DNA of 54,955 nucleotides. Origin: Endomicrobiaceae bacterium. GTDB taxonomy: Bacteria; Elusimicrobiota; Endomicrobiia; Endomicrobiales; Endomicrobiaceae. Made by a program: the position numbers and the translations under genes. Shown piece by piece: positions 10,982-54,783 of this stretch. The DNA is taken from NCBI GenBank assembly GCA_028711215.1, contig JAQTSO010000006.1:1-54955 (forward strand). Reading direction: 5' to 3'. Below the pieces are notes generated by a model that worked only from the letters and a program-made list of their open reading frames with translations, searched no databases and was not told the origin of the DNA. The first letter of the stretch is position 1. Each line of letters begins with the position of its first letter.

Positions 10982-12313
10982 ATGGCGAAACAGACTACAA
11001 TATTAAAGGATGTAATTGTAGAAGGGATAGGATTACATACCGGCAACAATAGTAAAATTGTTTTTAAGCCTGCACAGGCAAATTACGGGATACATTTTGT
11101 CAGAGTTGATTTACCGGGCAAACCAGATTTATTGGCTAATTGGCAAAATTTGTCTGATGAAGTTGCAATAAGAGGAACAATTATTGAAAATAACGGCGTT
11201 AAAATGTATACGGTTGAACATATACTTGCAATTTGTTCTGCTCTTAAAATTGATAATTTGATTGTTGAGATAGATAACAATGAACCTCCTATATCGGACG
11301 GCAGTGCAAAATTACTGACACAGGAAATATTGTCCGCAGGCATAAAAGAACTTGATGCACAAAGAGAATATTATATTGTCAAAGAACCGGTTACTTTTAG
11401 TGACGGGAAAACAACAATTACTGCATATCCTTCAGATAAATTTGAAATAGATTGTACAATCGGATTTGAACATCCTTTTTTGGCAAATCAACAAGGGAAA
11501 TTTGTGATAACGGAAGAAACATTTATAAACGATATTGCGCCGTCGAGAACTTTTTGTTTTGATTTTGAAATAGAAGCACTTCAGGCAAACGGTCTTGCAA
11601 AAGGCGGAAGTTTAGAAAATGCAATTGTTATAGGTCCGGCAGGAATTTACAATAAAGAACCTTTGAGATATCAAGACGAATTCGTAAGGCATAAAACATT
11701 GGACATAATCGGTGATTTATATTTATTGGGTAAGCAAATAAAGGCAAAAATAGTTGCAGTAAAACCCGGGCATAAAAATAACGGACTGTTTGTTAAAGAA
11801 TTTATAAAAAAAGCAATTTTGGTTAAAGATGAAAATAAAGCGGAGGAAAAAGTGCAAGAACAAATAGTCGGTGAAAGAATCATAAATAGCGCAGAAATTC
11901 AAACAATTATTCCGCACAGATATCCGATTTTAATGGTTGACAGAGTAAAACTTACTGATGACACAAAAAGGGCAACGGGATATAAAGCTGTCAGCGGTAA
12001 CGAGGGTTTTTTTCAGGGACATTTTCCGGGTCAGCCGATTATGCCCGGAGTTTTGATAGTAGAAGCAATGGCACAGACATCCTGTGTGCTATTTTTATCA
12101 AGACCTAATATGAAAAATAAATTAGCTTATTTTATGGGAATAGACAATGTTAAATTCAGAAAAACAGTTATTCCCGGAGATATGCTGGAACTAAAAATAG
12201 AAGTAATCAAAGACAGTGGTACTAAAGGTAAAGTAAAAGGCGAGGCTTTTGTTGACGGAAAACTTGTTACAGAAGCAGAATTTATGTTCATTTTAGTGGA
12301 TAGAGGGGCTTAA
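10982..12313 (+). CDS. lpxC-fabZ: bifunctional LpxC deacetylase / FabZ hydroxyacyl-ACP dehydratase
   Basis: Two enzymes are joined in one 443-residue chain. Residues 1-280 are LpxC, the Zn-dependent deacetylase that commits UDP-3-O-acyl-GlcNAc to lipid A. Zinc ligands fit His80 (TVEHILA), His237 and Asp241 (RHKTLDIIGDL), with His264 in KPGHKNNG. After a short charged linker, residues about 300-443 are FabZ, with PHRYPILMVDR and the active-site His347 and Glu361 in GHFPGQPIMPGVLIVEAMAQ. Such fusions are known in Bacteroidota and some other phyla. The arrangement ties lipid A flux to fatty acid elongation. Confidence 0.96.
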   Translation: MAKQTTILKDVIVEGIGLHTGNNSKIVFKPAQANYGIHFVRVDLPGKPDLLANWQNLSDEVAIRGTIIENNGVKMYTVEHILAICSALKIDNLIVEIDNNEPPISDGSAKLLTQEILSAGIKELDAQREYYIVKEPVTFSDGKTTITAYPSDKFEIDCTIGFEHPFLANQQGKFVITEETFINDIAPSRTFCFDFEIEALQANGLAKGGSLENAIVIGPAGIYNKEPLRYQDEFVRHKTLDIIGDLYLLGKQIKAKIVAVKPGHKNNGLFVKEFIKKAILVKDENKAEEKVQEQIVGERIINSAEIQTIIPHRYPILMVDRVKLTDDTKRATGYKAVSGNEGFFQGHFPGQPIMPGVLIVEAMAQTSCVLFLSRPNMKNKLAYFMGIDNVKFRKTVIPGDMLELKIEVIKDSGTKGKVKGEAFVDGKLVTEAEFMFILVDRGA

Positions 12314-38839: not shown

Positions 38840-39886
38840 TTAATTTTCTGACTTTTTTAAAATCCAAACGCTATATGGCGGTATCATAGATTTTTTAATT
38901 ATTTTTTTAAGTTTAGTTTGTTTACTAAACAGTACTTTAATATTTGATTTTAGAAAATCTTTATGAATTTTTACATATTTATCATGCTGGTTTATTAAAA
39001 TAATATAAATTGTATTTTCATACAAATAAGTTTTTACCTGTAAAGGTTTATAGATTTGAGGAGTTTCAATTTCTTTGCCGTTTTCAATTAATTTTGTAGT
39101 TTTTGATATTTCAGACACAACTTCTTTAATATCCTGCCAATTTTCAGGTTTTGCCTTTGGCAATGGTATGTCTTTTGAAGTGTAAATAAAATAAAATAAC
39201 CCTGTTGCTCCGTTAAATATTGCATCATATGACATAAATCTTATTTCATCTTTGGTAGGGAATCTCCCGATTCTGTCATTATCAGGTCTGAATTGCTTGT
39301 ATTCTTTCCAGTCAAAAATTTGGATTACTGCCCATAAAGGCTTATCCTTTAATCCGATTTTAATAAATTCCTCTTTTGCCAATGCTATTTGTTTACCGAG
39401 CGATTCTAATCTAAAATGTGGAACAGGGTACCAATCAACCATTAAAATGTCAGCTATATCATAAAAAGGCATTTCTGTTTTTCCCTGCCCGATTACAAAA
39501 GTTGTTTTGTATTTAGGGAAAAAAAGTTTTGTTTTATTATCTATATCTTTTAGAGTATCACGAGAGATAGAGTTTACGTCAGGTTCATCATATAAATACC
39601 AAGCACTAACCGGCAAGTCTAGGGAAGTTTTTTTGTTAAACGTTTTAAAAAATTCCTGAGGATTGGCAACAATTTTCATGTTTTGTTTTTTTGCCTCATC
39701 AGCAAGTGCAGTAATTGTTGCGATATCTTTTTTATATGTTTGTATTGTGTTAAACCCGGCGTCTTTTACAACAGCAATATCCTGCGGATTATCTACGCCG
39801 TAAATGCCAAGCGTAAAATCTTCCGCATAAACTGATACAGTTAACAGGCAAAATAAAGTAATTGTTAGTTGTTTTATTGTGTTCAT
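38840..39886 (-). CDS. secreted TIM-barrel, glycoside-hydrolase-like protein
   Basis: A signal peptide (MNTIKQLTITLFCLLTVSVYA) precedes what looks like a (beta/alpha)8 barrel: FTLGIYGVDNPQDIAVVKDAGFN at the start, SAWYLYDEPD around residue 100, ILMVDWYPVPH and LWAVIQIFDW. The YDEPD acid resembles the catalytic or binding Glu of glycosidase-like barrels. A small beta domain ends the chain (YSVWILKK). No CAZy family can be named from sequence alone. It overlaps the sugar transferase gene upstream by four bases, so it is coupled to polysaccharide synthesis and may trim the polymer or a precursor. Confidence 0.6.
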   Translation of the reverse strand: MNTIKQLTITLFCLLTVSVYAEDFTLGIYGVDNPQDIAVVKDAGFNTIQTYKKDIATITALADEAKKQNMKIVANPQEFFKTFNKKTSLDLPVSAWYLYDEPDVNSISRDTLKDIDNKTKLFFPKYKTTFVIGQGKTEMPFYDIADILMVDWYPVPHFRLESLGKQIALAKEEFIKIGLKDKPLWAVIQIFDWKEYKQFRPDNDRIGRFPTKDEIRFMSYDAIFNGATGLFYFIYTSKDIPLPKAKPENWQDIKEVVSEISKTTKLIENGKEIETPQIYKPLQVKTYLYENTIYIILINQHDKYVKIHKDFLKSNIKVLFSKQTKLKKIIKKSMIPPYSVWILKKSEN

Positions 39887-41199
39887 TTTAATACAGTATC
39901 CTTAATAAACATTCGTTTTGCTGTTTTTAATATAATTTCCAAATCCAAAAAAATTGAACGGTTTTTTATATACCAAATATCATAAGATAATCTTTTATAA
40001 GCATCATCAAAAACAATATCGGAGTTTTTATTTTCAAAAAATGATTTATCCTGAACGCAATAAACAACAGGAGCTTTATGATTTAATTGTGCGTGTCCCG
40101 TTAAACCGGGGGTAACCATGGTTCTGACAGGATTATTTGCGATATGTTTATTTATAAATTGATGTTCTTTGTTCCATATCGGGCGCGGACCTACAAAAGA
40201 TATGTCTGCTTTCAATATATTTATTAATTGAGGAATTTCATCAAGTCTGAAATTTCTCAAGATTTTTCCCAATTTTGTTATTTTTTCTGTAGTGGGAACC
40301 ATTGTCCTGAATTTATATATGTAAATTGGGATTCCCATTTTTCCAACCCTTTCTTGTGAAAATATCGGACTATTTTTATCTATGATTTTTATTAAAATAT
40401 AAATTAAAAACATTATCGGTAAAAAAATTACTAATAGAATTAGACTGGTCAAAATATCAACAGTTCTTTTTATAACTGAATATATAATATAATTTATGGT
40501 ATTTGTAGTTATGCCTTGAAACAACCAGATACTGTCTTTTATCCCTTCAATGGGGGTTCTATGTAAAAAATCTTCAAAGAAAATAAAATCTGTTTTAACT
40601 TCAATGTTTTTTATTAAAAATTTTTCAAAAACCGTAGTTAACAGATGGGTATCATTAGATAAAAGAGAATTGGATACAATAACCAATTCAGTATCTTTTG
40701 GAACATCATCACAATGTCTATCAAAACTTGCAATAATTTTATAATAAGGAGAATTCAGTAATTCTTTTTTTAATCTGGCTAAGGTTCTGTTTTTACCTAT
40801 TAGAACAACATTTATTTGTTTTTTTATTATAACAACATATAATCTTCTTGATATTATAATGTATAAATAATAAATAATAAATATAAGAATTAAATTTGTT
40901 TTTGGGGTAACAACTTTAAAAATAGGGGCTAAAAAATAAATTACTGTTGATGAAAAAAGAAAGGTAAATACAAAAGCTATTGCCAAATTTGAATATTCTA
41001 TTTGTTTTTTGTGTAATATCTTAAAATCATAAAATGAAAATATAAGTAAAACCAAGGTTATGATTAAAAAAGCAGGTATTAATACAAAACAGTTGGCTAT
41101 GAAAAAACTTACATTATATGAACTACTTCTTGTGGCAAGTACAATTAACGCAATGATTAAAAAAATAACAAAGTCTAATAATAAAAAAAGTATTCTCAT
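39883..41199 (-). CDS. polyprenyl-phosphate sugar-1-phosphate transferase (WbaP/WcaJ-like)
   Basis: This inner-membrane enzyme starts polysaccharide repeat synthesis by moving a sugar-1-phosphate from UDP-sugar to undecaprenyl phosphate. The N-terminal third holds about four to five hydrophobic helices, followed by a CoA-binding-like cytosolic region (VVLIGKNRTLARL). The C-terminal catalytic part is clear: KRTVDILTSLILLVIFLP, FSQERVGKMGIPIYIYKFRTM, LRNFRLDEIPQLINIL and SFVGPRP. At 438 residues it has the full-length WcaJ build. It lies downstream of the tyrosine phosphatase gene on the same strand. Confidence 0.9.
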   Translation of the reverse strand: MRILFLLLDFVIFLIIALIVLATRSSSYNVSFFIANCFVLIPAFLIITLVLLIFSFYDFKILHKKQIEYSNLAIAFVFTFLFSSTVIYFLAPIFKVVTPKTNLILIFIIYYLYIIISRRLYVVIIKKQINVVLIGKNRTLARLKKELLNSPYYKIIASFDRHCDDVPKDTELVIVSNSLLSNDTHLLTTVFEKFLIKNIEVKTDFIFFEDFLHRTPIEGIKDSIWLFQGITTNTINYIIYSVIKRTVDILTSLILLVIFLPIMFLIYILIKIIDKNSPIFSQERVGKMGIPIYIYKFRTMVPTTEKITKLGKILRNFRLDEIPQLINILKADISFVGPRPIWNKEHQFINKHIANNPVRTMVTPGLTGHAQLNHKAPVVYCVQDKSFFENKNSDIVFDDAYKRLSYDIWYIKNRSIFLDLEIILKTAKRMFIKDTVLK

Positions 41200-41777: not shown

Positions 41778-42602
41778 ATGGATAATCAACAGTTTTCATT
41801 ATTGATGTCAGTTTATGCCAAAGATAATCCAAAATGGTTTAAAGAGGCTATTGAAAGTATTATTAATCAGACTGTTAAACCGATGCAAATTGTTTTAGTT
41901 ATTGACGGTCCAATAAACCAAGAGTTGCAGGATGTTATTTATTTATATAATCAAAATGTAACTTTAAAATTTGACATATTAAAATTAGAAAAAAATTCCG
42001 GACTTGGAATTGCACTTCAAAAAGGGCTTAAAATTTGCAAATACCCGTTAGTCGCCAGAATGGATAGTGATGATATAAGCCTTCCTTCCCGTTTTGAACT
42101 ACAATTGAAGGAATTTAACAGTAATTCTAATTTAAGTATATTAAGTGCTTATATTCAGGAAATTGACTGTAATACAAAATCAAAATTAAATATAAGAAAA
42201 GTCCCCTTAACCGATGCAGAAATAAAAAAATATATAAAAACAAGGTCTCCTTTTAATCATCCATCTGTAATGTTTAAAAAAGAGAATGTTTTAAAAGCAG
42301 GCAATTATCAAGAGTTTCATTTCATGGAAGATTATTATCTATGGATAAGAATGGTAAAAAATAATTTTGAAATGAAAAACATACCTGACATATTATTGCA
42401 AATGAGAGTTAATCCTAATTTATATTCCAGAAGAGGCGGATATAAATATTTTATAAGCAATAAGGCTATTTGTGATGAAATGCTAAAGCTAAACCTTATA
42501 ACTTATCCATATTATTTGTTTAATATTGCTGTTCGTTTTACAACGCAAGTTTTAATGCCAAACTATTTAAGGAAATTTTTTTATAAAAAGGTTTTAAGAT
42601 AA
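41778..42602 (+). CDS. glycosyltransferase family 2, AmsE-like
   Basis: A GT-A type inverting glycosyltransferase of 274 residues. FSLLMSVYAKDNPKWFKEAIESI and QIVLVIDGP form the nucleotide-sugar binding start, and VARMDSDDI holds the DxD metal site. The KNSGLGIALQKGLK and HPSVMFKK segments fit the AmsE/WcaA-like subgroup. It is the first gene of a long rightward operon and is divergent from the tyrosine phosphatase. No ribosome binding site is seen; the promoter -10 lies right before the ATG. The sugar and acceptor are unknown. Confidence 0.88.
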   Translation: MDNQQFSLLMSVYAKDNPKWFKEAIESIINQTVKPMQIVLVIDGPINQELQDVIYLYNQNVTLKFDILKLEKNSGLGIALQKGLKICKYPLVARMDSDDISLPSRFELQLKEFNSNSNLSILSAYIQEIDCNTKSKLNIRKVPLTDAEIKKYIKTRSPFNHPSVMFKKENVLKAGNYQEFHFMEDYYLWIRMVKNNFEMKNIPDILLQMRVNPNLYSRRGGYKYFISNKAICDEMLKLNLITYPYYLFNIAVRFTTQVLMPNYLRKFFYKKVLR

Positions 42603-42605
42603 AAA

Positions 42606-43706
42606 ATGAAAAAAATAGTTTATGTCATATCAACTCTTAAAAAAACGGGTCCAACGTTAGTTTTATTTAACTTAGTGAAAAATTTGGATTTAAATAAATT
42701 TAAACCCGTTATTGTGACTTTGTCTTCGGAGCAGTCGGATACAATGATTGAGGAATTTAAAAGTCTTAATATTGATATTTTTTGTATTAATTTAAACAGA
42801 ATAAAAGGTTTTATATTTGGCGGATTTAAAATAAAAAAAATAATTAAGCGTATAAATCCGGATATTGTGCATTCTCATTGTTTTAGATCATCTTTATTTT
42901 CAGGACTATTTTTGTATGAATATAAAAGAATTGTTACCATACATTGTGATTATAAAACAGATTTTATAATGGCATACGGTAAATTTACAGGATATATAAT
43001 GTATTTTTTAATGCATTATTCATTGAAAAAGATAAAAAACAATATTTGTTGTTCAAAAATGTTAGCGGATATATTAAATTACAGATACCATAATATGAAT
43101 TTTAAATATATTGATAACGGAATAGATACTGAAAAATTTTATGTTGTTGACAGTAAATATATATTGAGACAAAAATTATCTTTGCCATATGATAAAAAAA
43201 TATTTATATGGATTGGGGCTTTCATTGCAAGAAAAAGTCCGGAAACTCTGGCTAAATCCATCAGTTTATTAGAACAAAAAAATATGTTTTTTTGTTTTTG
43301 CGGAGAAGGTAAATTGAAAGAAAAATGCAAGAATATGCTTTCTGAAAATAAAAATGTATTATTTACGGGTTCAGTTAATAATATTGACGAGTATTTAAAA
43401 GCTTCCGACTATTATATTTCAACTTCTTTTTCCGAGGGTCTGCCAAATTCCGTTCTTGAAGCAATGTCATGCGGATTGCCTGTTATATTATCCGATATTA
43501 TACAGCACAGATATGTTTTTAAAAATGTAGATTGTTATTATTTCGCCGCAGGAGACAGTAAAGATTTATGTAATAAAATAACTGCTGTTTCAAACAATGA
43601 TTATGAAAAATATTCAAAAGAATCAGTAAATATTGTTAAAAATAATTTTTCGGCATCTGCAATGAGTGCTAAATATCAAAATTATTATTTAATTTTTGAG
43701 GATTAG
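42606..43706 (+). CDS. glycosyltransferase family 4
   Basis: A GT-B fold retaining glycosyltransferase of 366 residues. The N-terminal domain begins IVYVISTLKKTGPTLVLFNLVK and has DIVHSHCFRSS. The linker CDYKTDF... leads to the C-terminal nucleotide-binding domain with KIFIWIGAFIARKSPETLAKSI and the EGLPNSVLEAMSCGLPVI motif, the E(x)7E of GT4 enzymes. It starts three bases after the AmsE-like gene. Donor and linkage cannot be read from the sequence. Confidence 0.9.
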   Translation: MKKIVYVISTLKKTGPTLVLFNLVKNLDLNKFKPVIVTLSSEQSDTMIEEFKSLNIDIFCINLNRIKGFIFGGFKIKKIIKRINPDIVHSHCFRSSLFSGLFLYEYKRIVTIHCDYKTDFIMAYGKFTGYIMYFLMHYSLKKIKNNICCSKMLADILNYRYHNMNFKYIDNGIDTEKFYVVDSKYILRQKLSLPYDKKIFIWIGAFIARKSPETLAKSISLLEQKNMFFCFCGEGKLKEKCKNMLSENKNVLFTGSVNNIDEYLKASDYYISTSFSEGLPNSVLEAMSCGLPVILSDIIQHRYVFKNVDCYYFAAGDSKDLCNKITAVSNNDYEKYSKESVNIVKNNFSASAMSAKYQNYYLIFED

Positions 43707-43710
43707 TTTA

Positions 43711-44844
43711 ATGGGTTTTTTTAAATTACATTTTAGTATACAGATATTTTGTCTTGCCATAATTTTTATGCTATTTGAGGGAGGTGGGTATCTTGGCGTA
43801 GGCGGGTACTATGCTCCTGTAATAATACTTGTTATTATTGCTGCTTTTATGACTGCTTTTCGACACGGAATTGTTTTTAGAAGAGAACATTTTTATATAA
43901 GCATACTGTTTATTATAATGATATTGCATCTTAATGCCAGTGTTGAATATATTGAATCATCACGTCTTATATGGGGCTATATACTGTTGTTTGTTATGTT
44001 TTTTTCACTTGTTTTATATAGAGCACAAATAGATGATTTGAAATATATAAAAACTTCTATTATTCTGTCTGCTTTTATAATTTCATTTTTTATAATTGTG
44101 ATGAGAAAAGAATACGGTTTGAGCGGTCGTTATACTTTGGATCTTGTAGGTCTGACTGATCCGAATCATGTTGCATCATTTTTGACATTAGGTTTGGTTT
44201 TGAATGTAAAAGAAATTTTTTTCTCATTTAAAAAATCCAATAAATTTATTTATATTTTAAGTTGTATAATTATACTTTTAGCAATAATGTTTACAGGTTC
44301 AAGAGGAGCATTCATATCATTAATATTATCTGTGCCGGTACTTTTTTTTGCAAAATTTAAGAAATTTTTCATTGGAATGTTTTTTTCGGTTTTTATATTT
44401 GGATTATCTTTTTTGATTTTGCCGGATTATTTAACGAATCGTTTTCTAGTAGATTCTTATAATGACGGTAGTAACCAGGCAAGAATAAGGTTGTGGCTTG
44501 GAACTGTTGAGAAAATTTCGCTTCATCCAATTGTCGGATATGGTGCTGTTCGAAGTAAAAACATAACGAGGATTGGTGCTGCTCATAATACTTTTCTTGC
44601 TTTTGCTTTACACTTTGGGTTATTGGGTTTATTAATGATGGTTTTTATATTATGGAAAATTTTCATAAATTGTTTACATAAAAGTATGTATTTATTTCTT
44701 GCTGTTTTTATCAATTTAATGGTCAACTCAATAATATTAGAGAATACAAATACAATGCCTTTTTGGTTTACGCTTGTATTTTTAGCTTATGCTGTAAATT
44801 ATAAATTAAAAAATCCAGAGGTTAATTTATGGAACGAGATTTAA
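43711..44844 (+). CDS. Wzy-like O-antigen/polysaccharide polymerase
   Basis: A polytopic membrane protein of 377 residues with roughly ten or more hydrophobic helices and a larger loop near residues 245-295 (containing ARIRLWLGTVEKI and PIVGYGAVRSKN), followed by GAAHNTFLAFALHFG. This is the Wzy_C/WaaL layout of O-antigen polymerases and ligases. In a locus with a Wzx-like flippase it most likely joins repeat units in the periplasm; a ligase role cannot be excluded. The ATG at 43711 has GAGGA eight bases upstream. A TTG at 43696 overlaps that site and the preceding gene. Confidence 0.8.
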   Translation: MGFFKLHFSIQIFCLAIIFMLFEGGGYLGVGGYYAPVIILVIIAAFMTAFRHGIVFRREHFYISILFIIMILHLNASVEYIESSRLIWGYILLFVMFFSLVLYRAQIDDLKYIKTSIILSAFIISFFIIVMRKEYGLSGRYTLDLVGLTDPNHVASFLTLGLVLNVKEIFFSFKKSNKFIYILSCIIILLAIMFTGSRGAFISLILSVPVLFFAKFKKFFIGMFFSVFIFGLSFLILPDYLTNRFLVDSYNDGSNQARIRLWLGTVEKISLHPIVGYGAVRSKNITRIGAAHNTFLAFALHFGLLGLLMMVFILWKIFINCLHKSMYLFLAVFINLMVNSIILENTNTMPFWFTLVFLAYAVNYKLKNPEVNLWNEI

Positions 44845-45863
44845 TATCAGTGATTGTTCCCATATATAAAACTGAAAAATATCTTCGCCGTTGTGTGGAG
44901 AGTATTTTAATACAAACCTATAAAAAATTAGAAATAATTTTGGTAGATGACGGTTCACCTGATAAATGTCCAAAAATTTGTGACGAATATGCAAAGAAAG
45001 ATGATCGTATAAAAGTAATACATAAGGAAAATGGTGGATTAGCAAGTGCGAGAAATGCAGGATTAGATATTGCAACGGGTTGCTATATAAGTACTGTTGA
45101 CAGTGACGATTGGATAGAATGTCAAACATATGAGACAGTCATGGTAATAATGCAAAGACATAATCCAGATTTAATAAAGTGGGGTTATTATAAAGTATCA
45201 GGTAAAAATAAAAGAATCCCTAAAAAAATAAATTACACTTCAGGATTGCTGTATGGGGATGATAAAGAAAAGTTTTTATTAGATACTTTAAGTTCTCAGG
45301 CAATGGGCAATAATGTAGTTACATGTTTATTTAAAAGAGAAATTATTGTCAATAAACGTCTCCATATACCTGAGAATATTTCTATGGAGGAAGATTTGTA
45401 TTTTTTAACATCATATCTTTTAAATTGTAATAATGTTTATATATTGCCAAATGTATTTTTATATAACTATTTTCAGAATCAACGGTCAATAACAAAGAGT
45501 TATAGTGATAAATATAGAGATAGTATTTTAATTGCTGTAAAAGAAATGAAACAGTTGCTGAAAAAAACAAGTAATAGCTCTGAAAATTTATATAAAGCAT
45601 ATATGTCACACTTAGTAGAAACAATATTTTATCTAATAATGATAATTGAAAAAAGCAATAAGCCTTTATCGGAAAAAGAACAAGAGTTGAAAGAATTTAT
45701 AATGAACCCGGACATCAGACCATATATTTCAAATCTGCCGATAAAAAAATATAGTTTTTATAAAGTAGTTATTTTCTATTTAGTCAAAAAAGGTTTTTAT
45801 AAAACAACTTTTATTATTATGAATTTATTATTATTTATGTATAAATTGAAAAATATAAAGTAA
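44829..45863 (+). CDS. glycosyltransferase family 2
   Basis: A GT-A enzyme of 344 residues that overlaps the polymerase gene by 16 bases. It begins LISVIVPIYKTEKYLRRC, then has ILVDDGSPDKCPKICDEYA, HKENGGLASARNAGL and TVDSDDWI with the DxD-like site. A charged middle and an amphipathic C-terminus with a hydrophobic final stretch suggest peripheral membrane attachment. The next gene is a related GT2 with the same N-terminal motifs. Sugar specificity is unknown. Confidence 0.9.
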   Translation: MERDLISVIVPIYKTEKYLRRCVESILIQTYKKLEIILVDDGSPDKCPKICDEYAKKDDRIKVIHKENGGLASARNAGLDIATGCYISTVDSDDWIECQTYETVMVIMQRHNPDLIKWGYYKVSGKNKRIPKKINYTSGLLYGDDKEKFLLDTLSSQAMGNNVVTCLFKREIIVNKRLHIPENISMEEDLYFLTSYLLNCNNVYILPNVFLYNYFQNQRSITKSYSDKYRDSILIAVKEMKQLLKKTSNSSENLYKAYMSHLVETIFYLIMIIEKSNKPLSEKEQELKEFIMNPDIRPYISNLPIKKYSFYKVVIFYLVKKGFYKTTFIIMNLLLFMYKLKNIK

Positions 45864-45907
45864 AAATAATATTGAAATAATAAATTAGAAATCTCTGGGG
45901 TTGGTTT

Positions 45908-46894
45908 ATGGTACAAAATGTAGTATCGATTATTATTCCCGTATATAATGCCGAAAAATATTTGCGAAGATGTCTGGATAGTGTTTTCAGACAGACTTAT
46001 AACAAACTTGAAATTATTTTAGTTGATGATGGCTCAACGGATGGCAGTGCTAAAATATGCGATGAATATGCTGAAAATGACAGTCGTATAAAAGTTATAC
46101 ATAAAACAAACGAAGGGGTATCAAGTGCAAGAAATGAAGGACTTAAAATTGCAAACGGCGAGTATATTGCTTTCATTGATGCGGATGACTATATTAAAGA
46201 AGATATGTTTGAATATCTTACCGTATTGATGGAAAATAATTCTGCTCAAATAGCAATATGTAATTATTGCGAATATACGGGCAGTAAAATTCATAATAAA
46301 AATATTATAGAAGAAAAAAACTTGGTATTGTCCAACAATGATGCTTTGCCGATGATTTTTACATCTTTGACTTTTGCCTGTTGGAATAAAATGTTCAAAG
46401 CGGAATTATTTCAAAATGAGTTTTTTCGCACTGATATATCAATGGGTGAGGATTTGGATATTGTGTTTAGATTGTTTCTTAAATCAAAAAGGATATGCAT
46501 AGGTAATGAAATAAAATATTTTTATAGCAGAGAAAATTTAAAAAGCAGTACAAAACAGGTTTTTAATGAAAATAAATTATCGGTTTTTAAAATGCTTGCA
46601 GGTATATCGGAATATGCAAATTCAATAAAAAATGAAACTTTGTACAGTCTGATATTATTTTCTAAAATATGCCATGCAGTTGATTTTTTAAAACAAATTA
46701 TAAAATCCGGATGTAATAATAAGAAAATTGTACTGGATTTACAAAGAATTGTTCGTGAAAATATTTTATTTTTTTTGAAAAGTAAACGTGCTTTTGGCGA
46801 CAAATTATTTGCTTTAAGTGTTTTTGTGAATTTTGACTTGACAAAATCAGTATGTAAAGTGGCGGAACCAATCTATAGAATGCTACGTAAATAG
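45908..46894 (+). CDS. glycosyltransferase family 2 (paralogue)
   Basis: This GT2 of 328 residues shares its first 100 residues closely with the previous gene: VVSIIIPVYNAEKYLRRCLDS, ILVDDGSTDGSAKICDEYA, SSARNEGLKIANGEYI and FIDADDYI. The C-terminal halves differ. That suggests gene duplication followed by divergence of the acceptor-binding part. A GGGG site precedes the ATG. It sits in the middle of the polysaccharide operon, upstream of two pyruvyl transferase genes. Confidence 0.9.
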   Translation: MVQNVVSIIIPVYNAEKYLRRCLDSVFRQTYNKLEIILVDDGSTDGSAKICDEYAENDSRIKVIHKTNEGVSSARNEGLKIANGEYIAFIDADDYIKEDMFEYLTVLMENNSAQIAICNYCEYTGSKIHNKNIIEEKNLVLSNNDALPMIFTSLTFACWNKMFKAELFQNEFFRTDISMGEDLDIVFRLFLKSKRICIGNEIKYFYSRENLKSSTKQVFNENKLSVFKMLAGISEYANSIKNETLYSLILFSKICHAVDFLKQIIKSGCNNKKIVLDLQRIVRENILFFLKSKRAFGDKLFALSVFVNFDLTKSVCKVAEPIYRMLRK

Positions 46895-46977
46895 AAAATT
46901 TTACATTGCGTTTTTTTATAGACAAATAAATTACATGATTTAAGATAAAGCTAAAAAAAATTACTTAAGGATTAAAT

Positions 46978-48210
46978 ATGAAAAAAACAGTAACATTATA
47001 CTATCATGCCGGAAGTAAAAATCACGGGTGTGAAGCTATTGTAAGGAGTACTTTAAAAATATTGCAAGATTATGACGTGAATCTTTTTTCTTTCCGCCCA
47101 GAAGAGGATAAATTTTTTCAAATTCCCGTCAATGTTTTGCCATTGATAATTAACAATACAAATCAAAAAACTAATAAGAAAACAATAAAGCAATTAATAG
47201 TATTGATACTTCAAAAATATTTTCCAAAATATATTCTAGTTTTTTTAATAAGATTAAGGAGACAAGTTGCCGGAATAAATTATGATAAGAATATGTATTC
47301 ACTTTTATTAAATGATAAGTCAGAAAAAACAATTTCTATAGGCGGTGATAATTACTGTTATGAAGAAATGATTAATTTACTTTATTTCTTAAATAAATCT
47401 TTGTGCGAAGTCGGGAAAAAAACTATTTTATTGGGTTGCTCTATTGAACCAAAAACAATAAAAAACAATAATTATTTAATAAAAAAGGACTTGTTGTCAT
47501 ATAGTTTAATAATTGCACGAGAATCTTTAACATATAATGCATTGCTTGAAAATGGCATTAATAAAAATACTCATTTAGTCCCTGATCCGGCATTTGTGTT
47601 AGACACTATAATTCCATTGAATTTACCAAAAGAATATATCATTGGAAACACTGTAGGTATAAATATCAGCCCCATGGTACAAAAATTAGAAAAAACTAAA
47701 GATATAACATATAAAAATATTGTAAAACTTATTAATAATATTTTGGCTGATAGTGACATGAATATTGCTCTTATTCCCCATGTTGTCCGTGACAGTGATA
47801 ATGATAAAAATCCACTTGAAAAACTTTATAAGGAATTTAAAAATACAGGCAGAGTTTGTTTTTTTCAAGAGGATTATAATTGTATGCAAATTAAGGGTAT
47901 AATTTCAAAATGTAGATTTTTAGTTGCTGCAAGAACTCATGCATCAATAGCAGGATATTCTTCTCAAGTTCCGACACTTGTAATAGGTTATTCGGTTAAA
48001 TCAAAAGGAATTGCTAAAGATATTTTCGGAACTTATTCGGATTATGTTATTTCAGTGCAGGATCTTAAAAAAGAAGATGATATATTAAATTCATTTAAAA
48101 AATTAATGTATAAAGAAGAAGAAATAAGACAGCACTATAAGAATTTTATGCCAAGTTATATAGAAAAAGTTTGGCAGACAAAAGATTTAATAGAAAAACT
48201 AAAAGATTAA
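46978..48210 (+). CDS. polysaccharide pyruvyl transferase, copy 1
   Basis: This belongs to the CsaB/WcaK family, which moves pyruvate from phosphoenolpyruvate to a polysaccharide sugar as a ketal. Seen are LYYHAGSKNHGCEAIVRST at the start, SIGGDNYCYEE, LGCSIEP, ESLTYNALLENGI and the C-terminal CRFLVAARTHASIAGYSSQVPTLVIGYSVKSKG block with the conserved Arg-x-His. It is 410 residues long with no signal peptide, so it acts in the cytosol. AAGGA precedes the ATG. The following gene is a divergent copy. Confidence 0.9.
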   Translation: MKKTVTLYYHAGSKNHGCEAIVRSTLKILQDYDVNLFSFRPEEDKFFQIPVNVLPLIINNTNQKTNKKTIKQLIVLILQKYFPKYILVFLIRLRRQVAGINYDKNMYSLLLNDKSEKTISIGGDNYCYEEMINLLYFLNKSLCEVGKKTILLGCSIEPKTIKNNNYLIKKDLLSYSLIIARESLTYNALLENGINKNTHLVPDPAFVLDTIIPLNLPKEYIIGNTVGINISPMVQKLEKTKDITYKNIVKLINNILADSDMNIALIPHVVRDSDNDKNPLEKLYKEFKNTGRVCFFQEDYNCMQIKGIISKCRFLVAARTHASIAGYSSQVPTLVIGYSVKSKGIAKDIFGTYSDYVISVQDLKKEDDILNSFKKLMYKEEEIRQHYKNFMPSYIEKVWQTKDLIEKLKD

Positions 48211-48249
48211 AAATATGATGGATGAAGGGAAGTTATAAAAGGAGTTAAA

Positions 48250-49455
48250 ATGAAAAAAGTTTTAATAGTTATCGTGGCAGCAAAATATAATATGGGTTCC
48301 CAAATGCTGTTAAGGGGTATTGCAGGTATCGTTAAAAATGCAGGTGCTGATTTGATTGATATATCATCGGCAGATATTAAGCATGGTGAAAGTTTAGGGA
48401 TACCGTTTGTCGATAACTATATTCCCAGGTTTTATAATATTTTTAGCAATTATTTCGTCTCCAAGATATTTGGATTATTACGTAGGCTTACAAATAATTT
48501 AGACTTGATTACTATTTTAAAAAGTTATTTATTGATCAAAAATATGAAAAAATACAATTTAATTATACTTGTTGCTGCCGATAATTATGATCATACTGTC
48601 GGAAGAAATCCATTAGATGTTTTTGTGAATTATCTTAATAAAATGGGAAATCGTCCGAAAATATTACTTTATGATTTTTCTATGAAAATGGAAAATATTA
48701 CAAAGCATTTAATAAATACAATCTCAAAAATAGATGCTTTAACCGTACGTGATACTCTTTCTTTTAATAATCTTAAAGAATTTTCTCCTAAAGAAAAGAT
48801 TTTTTTATTTTCGGATCCGGCTTTTGCGGTTAGTGCAAGCAAAATAGAACTTGATGGTATTTCTTTTGACTCTTTTGACAAAGAGTATGTCGGACTAAAT
48901 CTAAGTGCTCTTGTAGCAGGAGCATTGAATACAGATAAATATAAAAAGGTTATGGAATCTGCTTGTAAACTGATAGATGAAATTTTGATGAAAGATAAGC
49001 TTAACATTATTTTTATTCCACATGTTATGCAAAATGCAGATCTTTCAATATTGCGATATTTATATAATATATATAAACATACAAACAGAGTTTACTTAAT
49101 ATCCGATGAAAAACTAAATGGTCCACAGCTTAAATATATAATATCAAAATGTCGTTTTTTTATAGGAGCAAGAACTCATTCTACTATAGCAGCATACAGC
49201 TCTTGTATTCCTACTTTAGTTTTGGGGTATTCTATAAAGTCTTTGGGTATTGCCAAAGATTTATTTGGTACATATGATAATTTTGTTATTAATGTAAATT
49301 CCTTGCAAAGTGATACTAACCGTCTTGCCGATGGGTTTAATTGGCTTTATAGTCACGAGCTTGAAATTAAAAATAAACTAAAAGAAATTATGCCTTCTTA
49401 TATTGAAAATTCTGAAAGAGTAGGATTGCTTATATCTAAATTATTAGGAAAATAA
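48250..49455 (+). CDS. polysaccharide pyruvyl transferase, copy 2
   Basis: This is a paralogue of the preceding gene, 401 residues, with KKVLIVIVAAKYNMGSQMLLRG at the start. The strongly shared C-terminal block is CRFFIGARTHSTIAAYSS, PTLVLGYSIKSLGIAKD and FGTYDNFVI. The first half differs in sequence, and GGDN is replaced by AADN. A second copy may pyruvylate another sugar, or one copy may have shifted substrate. AGGAG lies before the ATG. It is followed three bases later by the flippase gene. Confidence 0.88.
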   Translation: MKKVLIVIVAAKYNMGSQMLLRGIAGIVKNAGADLIDISSADIKHGESLGIPFVDNYIPRFYNIFSNYFVSKIFGLLRRLTNNLDLITILKSYLLIKNMKKYNLIILVAADNYDHTVGRNPLDVFVNYLNKMGNRPKILLYDFSMKMENITKHLINTISKIDALTVRDTLSFNNLKEFSPKEKIFLFSDPAFAVSASKIELDGISFDSFDKEYVGLNLSALVAGALNTDKYKKVMESACKLIDEILMKDKLNIIFIPHVMQNADLSILRYLYNIYKHTNRVYLISDEKLNGPQLKYIISKCRFFIGARTHSTIAAYSSCIPTLVLGYSIKSLGIAKDLFGTYDNFVINVNSLQSDTNRLADGFNWLYSHELEIKNKLKEIMPSYIENSERVGLLISKLLGK

Positions 49456-49457
49456 AG

Positions 49458-50966
49458 ATGAATCAAAGAAAAGCAGGTGCTATATTGTCGTATGTCGGGA
49501 TATTTGGCAATACTGTTGCAAGTTTTATTTTTATTCCAATATTAATATCATTATTGGGAAAAGAACAATTTGGACTTTATCAACTTGTTGGTTCAATGAT
49601 AGCATATCTTATGATAATGGATTTTGGACTTGCAAATACTACCACAAGATATTATTCCATATATATGGCGCAAGGTAATGAAAAGTCTAAGGAAAATTTA
49701 CTTGCCACCACAGGCATTTTATATTGTCTTATATCAGTTTCTATAGTAATTGCAGGGATATGCGGAATTGATTACCTTATATCTTTTTATACCAATACAT
49801 TATCTCCTCAAGATATAGCTGTAGCTAAAAAAATGTTTTATATTTTATTGGTAAATGTTGCAATTGTTATTCCTGCAAATATTTTTACAGCTATTATAAA
49901 CTCTCATGAAAAATTTATTTTTGCAAAAAGCCTGACAATTTTTACGATGATATTTAGACCTTTAACCATATTACTATTTTTATTAATTAGCACAAATGTT
50001 ATTACAGTGGTTTTAGTTCAAACAGTGTTCAATATTTTAATTGTAGCGGCGAATATTTATTTTGCTTTATTTATTTTGAAAGCAAAATTTAAATTACATT
50101 TTTGGGATGGTAAACTTGTAAGGGAAATTCTAATATTTTCATTTTTTATATTTATTCCAGGAATAATGAACTTGGCATATTGGAAAACGGGACAAATAAT
50201 ATTGGGAGCAGTATCCGGAGCTAACACAGTGGCTGTTTATGCCATAGCGATATTAATAGCTAATGCATATATTTCGCTTTCTGCGGCAATAAGCGGTGTA
50301 TTTTTGCCAAAACTTTCTGCTATTACCGCAAAGACAAGTGATATGACGGAGATCAATAATATTTTTATAAGCAGCAGCAGAATACAATTTTTACTGTTGG
50401 CATTGTTTTTAAGCGGTTTTATAGTTTATGGCAAACAATTTGTGTTTTTCTGGCTGGGAGAATCTTTTATAAGCGGATATTACTTTGCTTTAATTTTGAT
50501 GGTGGGATTGTTTATTGGTTTAGTTCAAGGTGTAGGCGGACCAATAGTACAGGCAAAAAATAAACATGCTTTTAGATCTATTGTGTATTTTTTCTTAGGA
50601 CTTGCCAATATTGCGATTTCTATACCCATGGCGAAACTTTACGGCGGTTTAGGTTGTGCAATAACAACGGGATTTTGTTTGCTTTTGGGACAAACTGTTA
50701 TTATGAATATTTATTATCATAAAATAGGAGTGGCGATATTTAAATTTTTTCGAGAAATATTTTTTAGTTCATTCATTGTTTTGGGAGTTTCTATTGCAGG
50801 AATAATTATAAAGTACTATTGGGCTTGCGATAATTTATATTCTTTTTTGTTGCAAATATTTATTTTTACTTTAATGTATACAACTCTTATGTGGAAATTA
50901 TTTATGAATGATTATGAAAAAAATCTTGTCTTGAAACCTTTATTCAAGGCTTTAAATAAGGTATAA
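49458..50966 (+). CDS. Wzx-like polysaccharide flippase
   Basis: A membrane protein of 502 residues with about 12-14 hydrophobic helices and short charged loops, of the MOP/PST exporter type. The N-terminal region carries RKAGAILSYVGIFGNTVASFIFIPILISLLGKEQFGLYQL, a pattern common to Wzx flippases. It would turn the lipid-linked repeat unit from the cytosolic to the periplasmic face for the Wzy-like polymerase encoded upstream. It begins three bases after the second pyruvyl transferase. Confidence 0.9.
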   Translation: MNQRKAGAILSYVGIFGNTVASFIFIPILISLLGKEQFGLYQLVGSMIAYLMIMDFGLANTTTRYYSIYMAQGNEKSKENLLATTGILYCLISVSIVIAGICGIDYLISFYTNTLSPQDIAVAKKMFYILLVNVAIVIPANIFTAIINSHEKFIFAKSLTIFTMIFRPLTILLFLLISTNVITVVLVQTVFNILIVAANIYFALFILKAKFKLHFWDGKLVREILIFSFFIFIPGIMNLAYWKTGQIILGAVSGANTVAVYAIAILIANAYISLSAAISGVFLPKLSAITAKTSDMTEINNIFISSSRIQFLLLALFLSGFIVYGKQFVFFWLGESFISGYYFALILMVGLFIGLVQGVGGPIVQAKNKHAFRSIVYFFLGLANIAISIPMAKLYGGLGCAITTGFCLLLGQTVIMNIYYHKIGVAIFKFFREIFFSSFIVLGVSIAGIIIKYYWACDNLYSFLLQIFIFTLMYTTLMWKLFMNDYEKNLVLKPLFKALNKV

Positions 50967-50972
50967 AATGTT

Positions 50973-51995
50973 ATGAATAATTTAGACAGAAACTGCTCCT
51001 TGGATATTTTTAGATACTTTTGTGCCTTGCTTGTAGTTGCGATTCATATTCATCCTTTTATGGATGTTAACTATTCAATGGGATATTTGGCTACTCAAAT
51101 TATTCCAAGAATAGCAGTTCCATTTTTCTTTGTATTATCAGGATACTATTTTATACAGAATTTATACAACAATAGTTCCGTATTTAAAACCGTAAGAAAA
51201 ATTTTTATTGTTTATATTCTATGGAGTGTTATATATCTTTCTATTTATATTTTTAACTCAATTTCTAATTCGGTTCCGTTAATTGTTATTATAAAAGAAT
51301 GTATGCTAAAATTCTTTATTCTTGGTTCTTATTACCATTTATGGTTTTTTCCTGCTTTGTTTTTTGCAATGGGTACAGTATTTATAGCGCATAAATTAAA
51401 ATTTTTAAAACTGTTATTTATAATTTCATTAATATTTTATATTATTGGCTGTATCGGTTGTTCATGGTATGAGATTGGCAATAAAATTACGTTTTTATCA
51501 ACTATTATAAACTTGCATGAATTTAACATTATTAGAAGAATTTTATTTATGGGGTTGCCGTTTTTTATGGTCGGGTATTTGTTAAATATTTTTAAAACAA
51601 AATATGGAAGTTTTATAAATAAAAAACTCATGTTGATTTTGATAATAACTTCAATATGTTTTTTAATAGAAATATTTTTTGTTATTAAATTGGGATTACA
51701 GAAAAACATTATATTAACATTTTTTTTATATCCTTTACTTACTATATTAACAATAATTTTATTAAAAAATCCGTTGCAAAAATTGCAAAATATTGCTTAT
51801 AAAGCCAGAATCACATCAAATTTTATTTATTATTCACATCCCTTGATAATTATTTTTATATCAATAATTTTTCAAAAAATTGGAATTACTGTTAAAGAAA
51901 CATTGATGTACATTGTAGTTTGTTTTATTACAAGTATGATAGGATATATAATTGCAAAAATAGATAAATTTCATATAAATAATGTTGGTGTATAA
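50973..51995 (+). CDS. acyltransferase 3 family membrane protein
   Basis: A 340-residue protein with about ten hydrophobic helices. The first helix contains LDIFRYFCALLVVAIHIHPF, matching the acyltransferase 3 signature (Arg14, then His24 or His26 near the helix end), and PRIAVPFFFVLSGYYF follows. Family members add acetyl or other acyl groups to sugars on membrane-bound glycans. In this locus it probably O-acylates the polysaccharide. The ATG is preceded by a weak AAGG. Confidence 0.85.
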   Translation: MNNLDRNCSLDIFRYFCALLVVAIHIHPFMDVNYSMGYLATQIIPRIAVPFFFVLSGYYFIQNLYNNSSVFKTVRKIFIVYILWSVIYLSIYIFNSISNSVPLIVIIKECMLKFFILGSYYHLWFFPALFFAMGTVFIAHKLKFLKLLFIISLIFYIIGCIGCSWYEIGNKITFLSTIINLHEFNIIRRILFMGLPFFMVGYLLNIFKTKYGSFINKKLMLILIITSICFLIEIFFVIKLGLQKNIILTFFLYPLLTILTIILLKNPLQKLQNIAYKARITSNFIYYSHPLIIIFISIIFQKIGITVKETLMYIVVCFITSMIGYIIAKIDKFHINNVGV

Positions 51996-52034
51996 AAAAT
52001 TGAGAACTACAAAAAAAAGTTCTGGTGGATGGAA

Positions 52035-53189
52035 ATGTTAAAAATAACTGATAAATCAAAATGTTGCGGCTGTAATGCCTGCGGGAATATATGTCCGAAA
52101 GATGCGATTAGCATGCAATATGATAATGAAGGTTTTTTATACCCGTATGTAAATGAAAATGAATGTATTAAATGCGGATTATGTCTAAAAATTTGTCCCA
52201 TAATAAATGAATATAAAAAAGACAAAAATTATAAATGCGATTTTATAGGCGGGTATAATAAAGATATAAATATTTTGAAAAATAGTTCATCCGGAGGAAT
52301 TTTTTGGTTATTGGCAGAAAATATTATTGTAAAAAAAGGTGTTGTCTACGGAGTTGAGCTGGGTGATAATTTTTATGTTTTTCATAACAGGTCTGAAACT
52401 TTAAATGGAACTGAGAAATTTATGAAGTCAAAATATCTTGAAAGTAATATAGGCTTAATATACCGAAAAGTAAAAAATGATTTAGACAATAAGCTTTATG
52501 TTCTTTTTTCGGGGACACCTTGTCAAATTGCAGGATTATATTCTTATTTAGGTAAAGAATATGCTACTTTGTACACTTGTGACGTTATATGTCATGGAGT
52601 CCCTTCCAAAGTTGTATTTGATAAATATATACAAGAACTGAACATTAGTCAAAAAGCTAAAGCAGTATCAATATGCTGGCGAGATAAAATTAAAGGCTGG
52701 GGTCCGCCAAACATGGTTACTGTTTATTTTAATAACAATGAGAAACTGACGACTCCGTCTATGAAGAATCCTTATCAGGCAGGATTTCTTAAAAATCTTT
52801 ACTTGAGACCGTCATGTTATAAATGCAACTGGGCAAAATTACCAAGAATAGGAGATATTTCACTAGCTGATTTTTGGGACTATGAAGGCAAGTTATCAAA
52901 CGATAATAAAGGTTTATCTATAATTATATTATCCTCTGCAAAAGGAGTTCAATTATTTAATGAAATTAAAAAATATATTGAGTATGAATTTGTTACCGAA
53001 CAAATTATTACTAAAAAAAGCAGACATGTCCATTTACCGCCACTAAATAATAAAAAAAGAGATTTGTTTTTTAGAAATTTAAATAAATATTCTTTTAAAA
53101 GATTATCAAAAAAATATATTTATAATATAACATTAAGAAAAGTGCTCTCTGCAATAAAAAAAAATATATGCAAAATTATAAAAAAATAA
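52035..53189 (+). CDS. FrhB-type (coenzyme F420 hydrogenase beta family) iron-sulfur protein, copy 1
   Basis: The protein opens with two 4Fe-4S motifs, CCGCNACGNICP and CIKCGLCLKICP. These are followed by the N- and C-terminal FrhB domains: SSSGGIFW, FSGTPCQIAGL, CDVICHGVPS, SICWRDKIKGW, RPSCYKCNWAKLPRIGDISLADFWDY. FrhB carries FAD and passes electrons to F420 in methanogens; homologues in polysaccharide loci have no agreed reaction. I use the ATG at 52035 since the paralogue downstream starts with the same MLKITDKSKCCGC; the ATG at 52029 sits on the GGTGGA site. Length is 384 residues. Confidence 0.85.
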   Translation: MLKITDKSKCCGCNACGNICPKDAISMQYDNEGFLYPYVNENECIKCGLCLKICPIINEYKKDKNYKCDFIGGYNKDINILKNSSSGGIFWLLAENIIVKKGVVYGVELGDNFYVFHNRSETLNGTEKFMKSKYLESNIGLIYRKVKNDLDNKLYVLFSGTPCQIAGLYSYLGKEYATLYTCDVICHGVPSKVVFDKYIQELNISQKAKAVSICWRDKIKGWGPPNMVTVYFNNNEKLTTPSMKNPYQAGFLKNLYLRPSCYKCNWAKLPRIGDISLADFWDYEGKLSNDNKGLSIIILSSAKGVQLFNEIKKYIEYEFVTEQIITKKSRHVHLPPLNNKKRDLFFRNLNKYSFKRLSKKYIYNITLRKVLSAIKKNICKIIKK

Positions 53190-53207
53190 CAAGGATTTTC
53201 ATAAAAA

Positions 53208-54404
53208 ATGTTGAAAATAACAGATAAATCAAAATGTTGCGGATGCGGAGCATGTTATAATATTTGCACAAGTAATGCTATCACTATGCAAGAAGACAAT
53301 GAGGGATTTCTATATCCCGTTATAAATGCTAATTTTTGTATAAAATGCGGTTTATGTATCAATGCCTGTCCGATACTAAAAAAACAAAAAGACAGTGAAA
53401 CATTAGAAATATACGGTGCAAAAAATAAAAATATAAAAGAGCAAAAAATAAGTACTTCAGGCGGTATGTTTTCTATACTTGCAAATTATATATTGGATAA
53501 CAATGGAATTGTATTTGGAGCCAGTTATAACGAAAAGTGGGAAGTAGTTCATACATATATTGATAATAAAAACAGTTTAGATATTTTAAGAAGATCAAAA
53601 TATGTACAAAGTAATATCGGAAATACCTATAAACAAGCAAAAGAATTTTTAGAAAATAATAAAATTGTTTTATTCTGCGGAACACCTTGCCAGACAGCAG
53701 GGCTTAAAAGTTTTTTAAATAAGGATTTTAGTAATCTTTACTGTATGGATATTTTTTGTCATAGTGTGCCGTCTCCGAAAGTATGGAAAATATTTTTGGA
53801 ACAAAATTTCAATATCAGCAATATAAGCTCAATTGATTTTAGAAGTAAAGATTTCGGATGGGATAAAAGTTATTTAAAAATAATTTTAAAAAATAATAAA
53901 GTCTATCCGTATTTACCTATATATATAAAATTAATAACTTTATTTTTTCCTGAAAAACTTAGAATAAAGTTGTTAACCGGTTTATATTCTCTGTCTTTTA
54001 GAAAAGGGTTTTTGTCTGCTTTGTATTCAAGACCTTCTTGTCACAACTGCAGTTTAAAGGGGAAGCATAAACAGAGCGATATCAGCATAGGAGATTTATG
54101 GAGAATTTTTGAGATAGCCCCGCAGATGTATGATAAAAACGGAGTTTCCGTAATAACTCTCAATTCATTGAAAGGCACATTATTATTTGAACAAATAAAA
54201 AATAATTTAACGTTTACAAAAATAAATTTTGATAAAATGGTTAAGTACAATCCATACTTTTTGAACTCGATCGGTGCACATCCCGGAAGACGAGAATTTT
54301 TTGACAGTTACCAAACAGAGTCCTTAAATGATTTAATTAATCGTTTATTGTACGGACCATTTTTCAAAAGATGTTTCAATTTTTTAAAAAATCAGTTAAA
54401 ATAA
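53208..54404 (+). CDS. FrhB-type iron-sulfur protein, copy 2
   Basis: This tandem paralogue of 398 residues has the same order: CCGCGACYNICT, where the usual Pro after the fourth Cys is Thr, and CIKCGLCINACP. Then come STSGGMFS, FCGTPCQTAGL, DIFCHSVPS, FRSKDFGWD and RPSCHNCSLKGKHKQSDISIGDLW. A hydrophobic/aromatic insert of about 40 residues (LPIYIKLITLFFPEKLRIKLL) near residue 240 is absent from copy 1 and may contact the membrane. AAGGA lies 12 bases before the ATG. A redox role in sugar modification is inference. Confidence 0.83.
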   Translation: MLKITDKSKCCGCGACYNICTSNAITMQEDNEGFLYPVINANFCIKCGLCINACPILKKQKDSETLEIYGAKNKNIKEQKISTSGGMFSILANYILDNNGIVFGASYNEKWEVVHTYIDNKNSLDILRRSKYVQSNIGNTYKQAKEFLENNKIVLFCGTPCQTAGLKSFLNKDFSNLYCMDIFCHSVPSPKVWKIFLEQNFNISNISSIDFRSKDFGWDKSYLKIILKNNKVYPYLPIYIKLITLFFPEKLRIKLLTGLYSLSFRKGFLSALYSRPSCHNCSLKGKHKQSDISIGDLWRIFEIAPQMYDKNGVSVITLNSLKGTLLFEQIKNNLTFTKINFDKMVKYNPYFLNSIGAHPGRREFFDSYQTESLNDLINRLLYGPFFKRCFNFLKNQLK

Positions 54405-54546
54405 TAATAAATATTTTAATTTTAATACCATAAAACTATACCTTATATAATATAATTATTCTGCATAGAACTCAAAATTTTATAAATTATATCGTTTATG
54501 ATACAATAAATATATGTAATTGAAAGATATATTTGGAGGGGATTTT

Positions 54547-54783
54547 ATGGAACTAGGCAAAGAAATGGGAAAATTAAGAAAAAATATAAAACTTACACAG
54601 GTTGAATTATCGAAAAAAACTAAGGTTGGGTTAAGATTAATAAGGTATATTGAACAGGGCGGAAAAAATTTTAGATATGATAAGCTTGATTTATTGTTAA
54701 ATTTTTTTGGATATCATTTAGAGATTGAAAAAGACGAACCAAAGATGTCTTATACTGTAGAGCAATTAGAACTTAAACTATAA
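54547..54783 (+). CDS. XRE-family / HipB-like DNA-binding protein
   Basis: A 78-residue helix-turn-helix protein. MGKLRKNIKLTQVELSKKTKVGLRLIRYIEQGG is the HTH domain, followed by RYDKLDLLLNFFGYHLEI, typical of the y4mF/HipB-like group that often partners HipA toxins. No toxin gene accompanies it in view. I start at the ATG at 54547, with GGAGGGG five bases upstream; a TTG at 54520 would put that site inside the gene. It may regulate the neighbouring polysaccharide genes. The 142-base gap before it is extremely AT-rich, with a weak TACAAT at 54502-54507 and no other clear signal. Confidence 0.8.
   Translation: MELGKEMGKLRKNIKLTQVELSKKTKVGLRLIRYIEQGGKNFRYDKLDLLLNFFGYHLEIEKDEPKMSYTVEQLELKL

Follow-up and report, generated by a model that had tools for sequence, protein, structure and literature searches.

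The 54,955-nucleotide contig JAQTSO010000006.1 of an Endomicrobiaceae bacterium (GCA_028711215.1), hereafter the window, carries a capsule gene cluster in which two genes of the polysaccharide pyruvyl transferase (PSPT) family occur together with two genes for FrhB-type iron–sulfur proteins. The window spans one entire contig (C16) in a draft genome of 2.2 Mb and 168 contigs, rated 99.6% complete with a contamination of 8.8%. The host of the cluster is a rumen bacterium; its placement in the Elusimicrobia is given by its relatives, and the FrhB and PSPT trees support the identity of the contig. A same-strand run at 41778-54404 has the order GT2, GT4, Wzy/ligase, GT2, GT2, PSPT1, PSPT2, Wzx, acyltransferase, FrhB1, FrhB2 (GT, glycosyltransferase), with the following features:

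41778-46894, + strand: upstream part of the run, with GT2, GT4, Wzy/O-antigen ligase, GT2 and GT2 (Pfam)
46978-48210, + strand: PSPT1, polysaccharide pyruvyl transferase family, 410 aa, class A as defined below (PF04230, 127 bits)
48250-49455, + strand: PSPT2, polysaccharide pyruvyl transferase family, 401 aa, class A (PF04230, 67 bits)
49458-50966, + strand: Wzx-type flippase for lipid-linked oligosaccharides, the third component of the recurring module (PF01943, Polysacc_synt)
50973-51995, + strand: membrane O-acyltransferase, Acyl_transf_3 (PF01757, 65 bits)
52029-53189, + strand: FrhB1, 386 aa, a ferredoxin-like 2[4Fe-4S] domain followed by an FrhB flavin domain with four more conserved Cys (PF04432, 72.5 bits)
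53208-54404, + strand: FrhB2, 398 aa, with the architecture of FrhB1 (PF04432, 76.2 bits)
53904-53993, + strand: codons of a hydrophobic, basic insert in FrhB2, approximately residues 233-262 (alignment and predicted structure)

A first-pass annotation, made from the sequence alone, had proposed two tandem PSPT genes and two FrhB genes at this locus. The open reading frames (ORFs) lie exactly where it placed them, and Pfam confirms all four (gathering cut-offs of 25.3 bits for PF04230 and 23.3 bits for PF04432) and finds Fer4 domains in both FrhB proteins. Neither PF04230 nor PF04432 has any further match in the 2.2-Mb genome. The GT2, GT4, Wzy/ligase, GT2 and GT2 genes at 41778-46894 place the PSPT/Wzx/FrhB module in a Wzx/Wzy capsule locus, the defining components of which are present as EPS_sugtrans-like (39883-41199), Wzy_C (43696-44844) and Polysacc_synt (49458-50966) matches together with GTs. 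Upstream of the run lie an oppositely oriented gene for the initiating sugar transferase and a small gene that, judged by eye, resembles a tyrosine phosphatase.

The association of PSPT with FrhB was assessed in 91 loci containing 101 FrhB ORFs, with gene counts made on all ORFs. Eighty of these loci are the best matches to FrhB2 and the rest are other loci, so the sample represents the subfamily of FrhB2 rather than all FrhB proteins. A PSPT gene lies within 3.5 kb of 79 of the 101 FrhB genes and is directly adjacent to 49; the corresponding numbers of direct neighbours are 50 for Wzx, 10 for GT2 and 7 for GT4. Unbiased clustering of the neighbours within three genes of FrhB recovers strong enrichment only for PSPT (odds ratio (OR) 14, p 5e-16, for the large class and OR 6.6 for the class containing PSPT2) and for Wzx (OR 37), with no strong enrichment of sugar-nucleotide enzymes or GTs over the same span. 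The sharp enrichment of PSPT and FrhB at a spacing of one to three genes is seen in several phyla. In the host's own order, PF04432 is found in 8/84 genomes, and 8 of the 11 FrhB genes in those genomes lie within ∼5 kb of a PSPT gene by coordinates, while one of the remaining three ends ∼120 bp from a contig end. Because PSPT and Wzx are enriched and sugar-nucleotide enzymes and GTs are not, FrhB probably acts on the PSPT product or on the lipid-linked unit, and not on a nucleotide sugar.

The numbers of the two genes also match. Among loci of at least 12 kb, 9/10 of those with two FrhB genes contain at least two PSPT genes, versus 3/68 of those with one FrhB gene (Fisher p 1.2e-8, with some of the loci being close relatives and not all independent). 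In L018, the sole two-FrhB locus that breaks the rule, a contig end cuts the PSPT gene. By Pfam, three ORFs fuse the two families, in the order PSPT to FrhB in L080 and L084, which are closely related Clostridia, and in the order FrhB to PSPT in L099, from Melainabacteria. Gene fusions usually link consecutive steps of a pathway. Taken together, the fusions, the matching copy numbers and the lack of an enriched sugar-nucleotide enzyme point to the PSPT product as the likely FrhB substrate. Pairwise distances correlate between FrhB and PSPT (Mantel rho 0.24, p 0.003) and between FrhB and Wzx (rho 0.29, p 0.001), and the corresponding FrhB–GT2 and FrhB–GT4 correlations are not significant; the FrhB–PSPT correlation is weak, in keeping with mosaic loci. 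The coupling of PSPT and FrhB is real. The idea that the two families recur together in polysaccharide loci thus holds far beyond chance, their trees correlate, and the cluster cysteines and flavoprotein fold of FrhB are kept.

Two further observations concern these genes. In L015 (8772-11367, genome G066), a very divergent FrhB adjoins a very divergent class A PSPT, which suggests that PSPT and FrhB were paired before the subfamily sampled here arose. Apparently broken copies also occur, with FrhB and PSPT frames split into adjacent pieces in L017 (3274-4458, genome G077) and in L024, a Ruminococcus albus plasmid (9209-13442).

FrhB1 and FrhB2 are 38% identical. Twelve cluster cysteines, eight in the ferredoxin domain and four in the flavin domain, are invariant in 71 sequences that include both window proteins; in FrhB2 these are residues 10/13/16/20, 44/47/50/54 and 161/184/278/281. 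The AlphaFold model of FrhB2 has a pLDDT of 93.8, and its PDB fold matches at E≤0.001, 18 in number, all belong to the FrhB family; they include components of F420-reducing formylmethanofuran dehydrogenase and CO dehydrogenase, Fsr, Frh, related heterodisulfide-reductase complexes and HCAR. The motifs SKYxxS and GTPCQ are common to the window-type FrhBs and the solved flavoproteins and are kept throughout. From this similarity in fold and motifs to FAD-binding structures, we infer that FrhB would bind FAD.

The first-pass annotation had also pointed to an extra hydrophobic insert in the second FrhB, and the alignment bears this out: the segment from FRxK to RPSC is 61 residues long in FrhB2, the longest among 71 relatives (median 40). 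A long segment is a trait of the elusimicrobial FrhB2 clade, whose other members have 54-58 residues. The insert is modeled as two short helices at lower confidence, and a transmembrane nature was rejected since its best 19-residue Kyte–Doolittle mean is 1.02. With regard to the electron carrier, cofD has no match in the 99.6% complete host genome and cofG matches only below the cut-off, in a search that covered neither cofC, cofE nor cofH and that leaves room for F420 uptake. F420 was for this reason judged unlikely as the carrier, and the donor to FrhB is probably ferredoxin.

The two PSPTs of the window are 31% identical to one another. Using the phosphoenolpyruvate (PEP)-binding residues of CsaB as a reference (R148, R306, H308 and K328; PMC10435577), we find that PSPT1 and PSPT2 both have R, R, H and K at these positions, like WcaK, an arrangement that we call class A; in PSPT1 the aligned residues are R181, R319-x-H321 and K341. 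The AlphaFold model of PSPT1 (pLDDT 90) has GT-B fold matches, and its closest relatives on the tree are PSPTs from Oscillospiraceae. Neither protein reaches the curated cut-off of the CsaB equivalog TIGR03609 (213 bits), their scores being 56.7 and 48.1 bits. Most FrhB-linked PSPTs belong instead to class B, in which the residue equivalent to CsaB R306 is S and that equivalent to K328 is R (58 S versus 14 R near FrhB). By contrast, of 20 PSPT genes in the host's order that are not close to FrhB, 17 have the canonical RxH. The S and R substitutions are about equally numerous across the alignment, and classes A and B form separate groups on the PSPT tree. Class B therefore seems to be tied to FrhB, as does one class A branch that includes the window PSPTs. 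The predicted product of the window PSPTs is a pyruvate ketal or an enolpyruvyl ether.

The module recurs in relatives of the host. PSPT2-Wzx-FrhB1-FrhB2 is found in three elusimicrobial genomes, one of which holds a second PSPT. PSPT2 forms a clade with L018_14280 and L033_6064 (support 100), both of which lie upstream of Wzx-FrhB1-FrhB2, and FrhB1 forms one with L018_11604 and L033_8832 (support 100); the FrhB2 clade comprises L021, L018_10327, L014, L028 and L033_10001. The Acyl_transf_3 gene lies inside the window block and is absent from the conserved block of L018 and L033. In L033 the order is PSPT(class B)-PSPT2-Wzx-FrhB1-FrhB2, with an overlapping PSPT frame at 5087-6142, which indicates that the two-plus-two arrangement recurs even though the first PSPT of L033 differs in class from PSPT1. 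A recent tandem duplication was rejected because the paralogues are 31-38% identical and have orthologues in other genomes; by sequence, the FrhB and PSPT pairs are old paralogues.

Several features of individual loci were recorded alongside these comparisons. One end of an apparently allelic capsule locus from the same genus (L014, 3-10415, genome G001) carries a related GT2 and the other an FrhB2-type gene next to Wzc-like genes; the interior differs from that of the window locus and includes a radical-SAM-like gene and two PSPTs, one of class B and the other a divergent member of class A. A PSPT is missing from the 6 kb around FrhB in L060, L062, L066, L071 and L098 (Acidaminococcaceae) and in L045, L047 and L070, and the FrhB neighbours in L060, L070, L045 and L047 look like housekeeping genes. 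The Wzx and FrhB frames overlap or abut in L046, L082 and L086; of these three, L046 has a PSPT (11148-12290), whereas none lies within 6 kb in L082 and L086. In the window, FrhB2 is immediately followed, at the end of the contig, by a gene for a small HTH_3 protein (54520-54783), which could be the first of a toxin–antitoxin or regulator gene pair.

PEP is the substrate of PSPTs and the relatives of FrhB are flavin oxidoreductases, which makes a lactyl ether the simplest joint product. We tentatively favor a reading in which the two PSPT/FrhB pairs modify the lipid-linked repeat unit, with FrhB reducing the group added by PSPT to a lactyl (1-carboxyethyl) ether. A PEP-dependent PSPT would place an enolpyruvyl ether, or a ketal, on a sugar hydroxyl of the lipid-linked glycan. 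Reduced ferredoxin would feed FrhB, with electrons passing through three [4Fe-4S] clusters to FAD, and the partner FrhB would then reduce the enolpyruvyl ether, or reductively open the ketal, to the lactyl ether. Both steps would take place on the cytoplasmic side directly before Wzx flips the repeat unit, and two pairs would correspond to two lactyl groups on different sugars or positions. The broader proposition, that PSPT and FrhB form a dedicated and widespread pathway for capsule lactyl ethers in anaerobes, a reinvention of MurA/MurB by a GT-B-fold enolpyruvyl transferase and a ferredoxin-dependent FrhB reductase, present here as two matched pairs, is possible but a shade more doubtful.

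Besides the fusions, the selective enrichment, the copy-number match, the probable lack of F420 and the distinct class of most FrhB-linked PSPTs, further points were counted for this reading. HCAR, which reduces an organic substrate, is among the fold matches of FrhB2. Klebsiella K22 and K37 have PSPT genes but unpyruvylated capsules (PMC4616057), and the K22 capsular polysaccharide (CPS) contains 4-O-[(S)-1-carboxyethyl]-GlcA, from which K37 is said to differ only by acetylation (PMC3857182). This case shows a PSPT gene alongside a lactyl ether; FrhB is no part of that evidence. The two nitroreductase genes of Klebsiella cps loci might conceivably belong to K22 and K37. The accessible part of PMC4616057 gives one 'coenzyme F420 hydrogenase', in an unnamed capsule type, for all Klebsiella cps loci, so at most one of the nearly identical K22 and K37 loci could carry an annotated FrhB. 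This F420-hydrogenase count weighs against a lactyl ether made by PSPT and FrhB, as do several other observations. The canonical PEP-binding set is complete in the window PSPTs, as expected of ordinary ketal transferases, and the substrate residues of FrhB are not assignable. No PSPT lies within 6 kb of 19/101 FrhB genes, several of these being at locus ends; some, such as the FrhBs of L045, L047 and L060, stand alone and those of L082 and L086 have only Wzx adjoining. Finally, the accessible literature yielded no glycan structure for this or any FrhB-bearing locus.

Some of these points would suit a different division of labor, in which ordinary pyruvate ketals are the product of PSPT and FrhB carries out a reaction of its own on one of the sugars in the repeat unit, such as reduction of a keto group or a deoxygenation, the two steps being coupled only by finishing the unit before it is flipped. 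PSPT1 and PSPT2 retain every CsaB PEP residue examined, PSPT is replaceable in that class A or class B stands beside one FrhB2 clade, HCAR-type relatives of FrhB reduce varied substrates, and Wzx–FrhB pairs exist in the absence of PSPT. However, we consider this arrangement unlikely, as separate reactions would leave unexplained why copy numbers match and why PSPT–FrhB fusions occur in either order, and the genes beside FrhB show no enrichment of a sugar-modifying family from which a keto sugar could come. The first-pass annotation had suggested a matched pair of modifications, for example a redox step on the pyruvate ketal or on the sugar; the matching copy numbers and the three fusions support the pairing, while action of FrhB on the pyruvyl group to give a lactyl ether is an inference.

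The tighter association of FrhB with Wzx than with PSPT (OR 37), together with 12 conserved cysteines for three clusters, might also point to a noncatalytic FrhB that serves as a redox sensor or electron-transfer partner gating PSPT or Wzx in anaerobes. Gating would need no ratio of one FrhB per PSPT, and the flavin-domain landmarks of the structurally solved enzymes are kept throughout, making such a role improbable. Least probable of all is that PSPT, Wzx and FrhB simply hitch-hike between capsule loci as a cassette with no biochemical link. Capsule loci are highly mosaic and the three gene trees correlate weakly (rho 0.2-0.3), but the GT genes of the same loci show no such pattern, and a passive cassette would not explain the fusions, the copy-number match or the sharp enrichment within one to three genes in several phyla.

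F420 hydrogenase subunit is the usual annotation of FrhB-type genes in gut anaerobes, yet some of the hosts, that of the window among them, seem to be without F420. Pairing FrhB with PSPT gives a concrete reaction and would correct this annotation. To our knowledge, the route by which anaerobes synthesize polysaccharide lactyl ethers is not established; formation of these ethers by PSPT and FrhB would, if true, explain their origin and constitute a convergent version of a peptidoglycan step.

A link between FrhB and polysaccharide loci is already published. In the accessible text of PMC10267222 (2023), K00441 (FrhB) genes are enriched near lipopolysaccharide (LPS) and exopolysaccharide (EPS) genes and are associated with mucin carriers, and the authors call the FrhB–LPS/EPS association a previously uncharacterized functional link. 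The Bacteroides dorei mucin-association locus described there resembles the window in having an FrhB-type gene within LPS/EPS clusters, but that text gives neither the word 'pyruvyl' nor a mechanism nor fusions; this one study ties the genes to mucin association with the mechanism absent. No paper pairing FrhB with PSPT was found in the open-access literature, subscription papers being outside the search, and a distant DNA search of low sensitivity with a Clostridium and a Prevotella gene gave no match to FrhB in E.coli O-antigen or capsule clusters. The conserved unit also takes in the flippase and the polysaccharide link has a precedent, leaving the earlier interpretation as a whole partly supported.

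The window PSPTs share family PF04230 and the PEP-binding R, R-x-H and K with the ketal pyruvyl transferases CsaB, WcaK and Pvg1. They differ in scoring far under the equivalog cut-offs for CsaB and WcaK and in being accompanied by FrhB, and most of their FrhB-linked relatives carry the R-to-S and K-to-R changes; we know of no requirement of CsaB or WcaK for FrhB. The FrhB proteins share their fold with the F420H2-oxidase half of Fsr, with FrhB/FpoF and with HCAR, and their 12 invariant cysteines fit the layout of Fsr, where two [4Fe-4S] clusters lie in the ferredoxin domain and a third beside FAD (PMC10229431). Unlike these enzymes, they have no hydrogenase or sulfite reductase partner, and their genomic partners are PSPT and Wzx.

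MurA and MurB are the UDP-GlcNAc enolpyruvyl transferase and the FAD reductase of peptidoglycan synthesis. Their likeness to PSPT and FrhB lies in the proposed chemistry only, in which an enolpyruvyl group is transferred from PEP and then reduced by a flavoenzyme to a lactyl ether. We found no homology: a Pfam scan of the window PSPT and FrhB proteins for MurA or MurB domains returned only PF04230, with its GT-B fold, or PF04432/Fer4. Whereas MurB draws on NADPH, the proposed donor to FrhB is ferredoxin, and the proposed substrate of PSPT and FrhB is a lipid-linked glycan.

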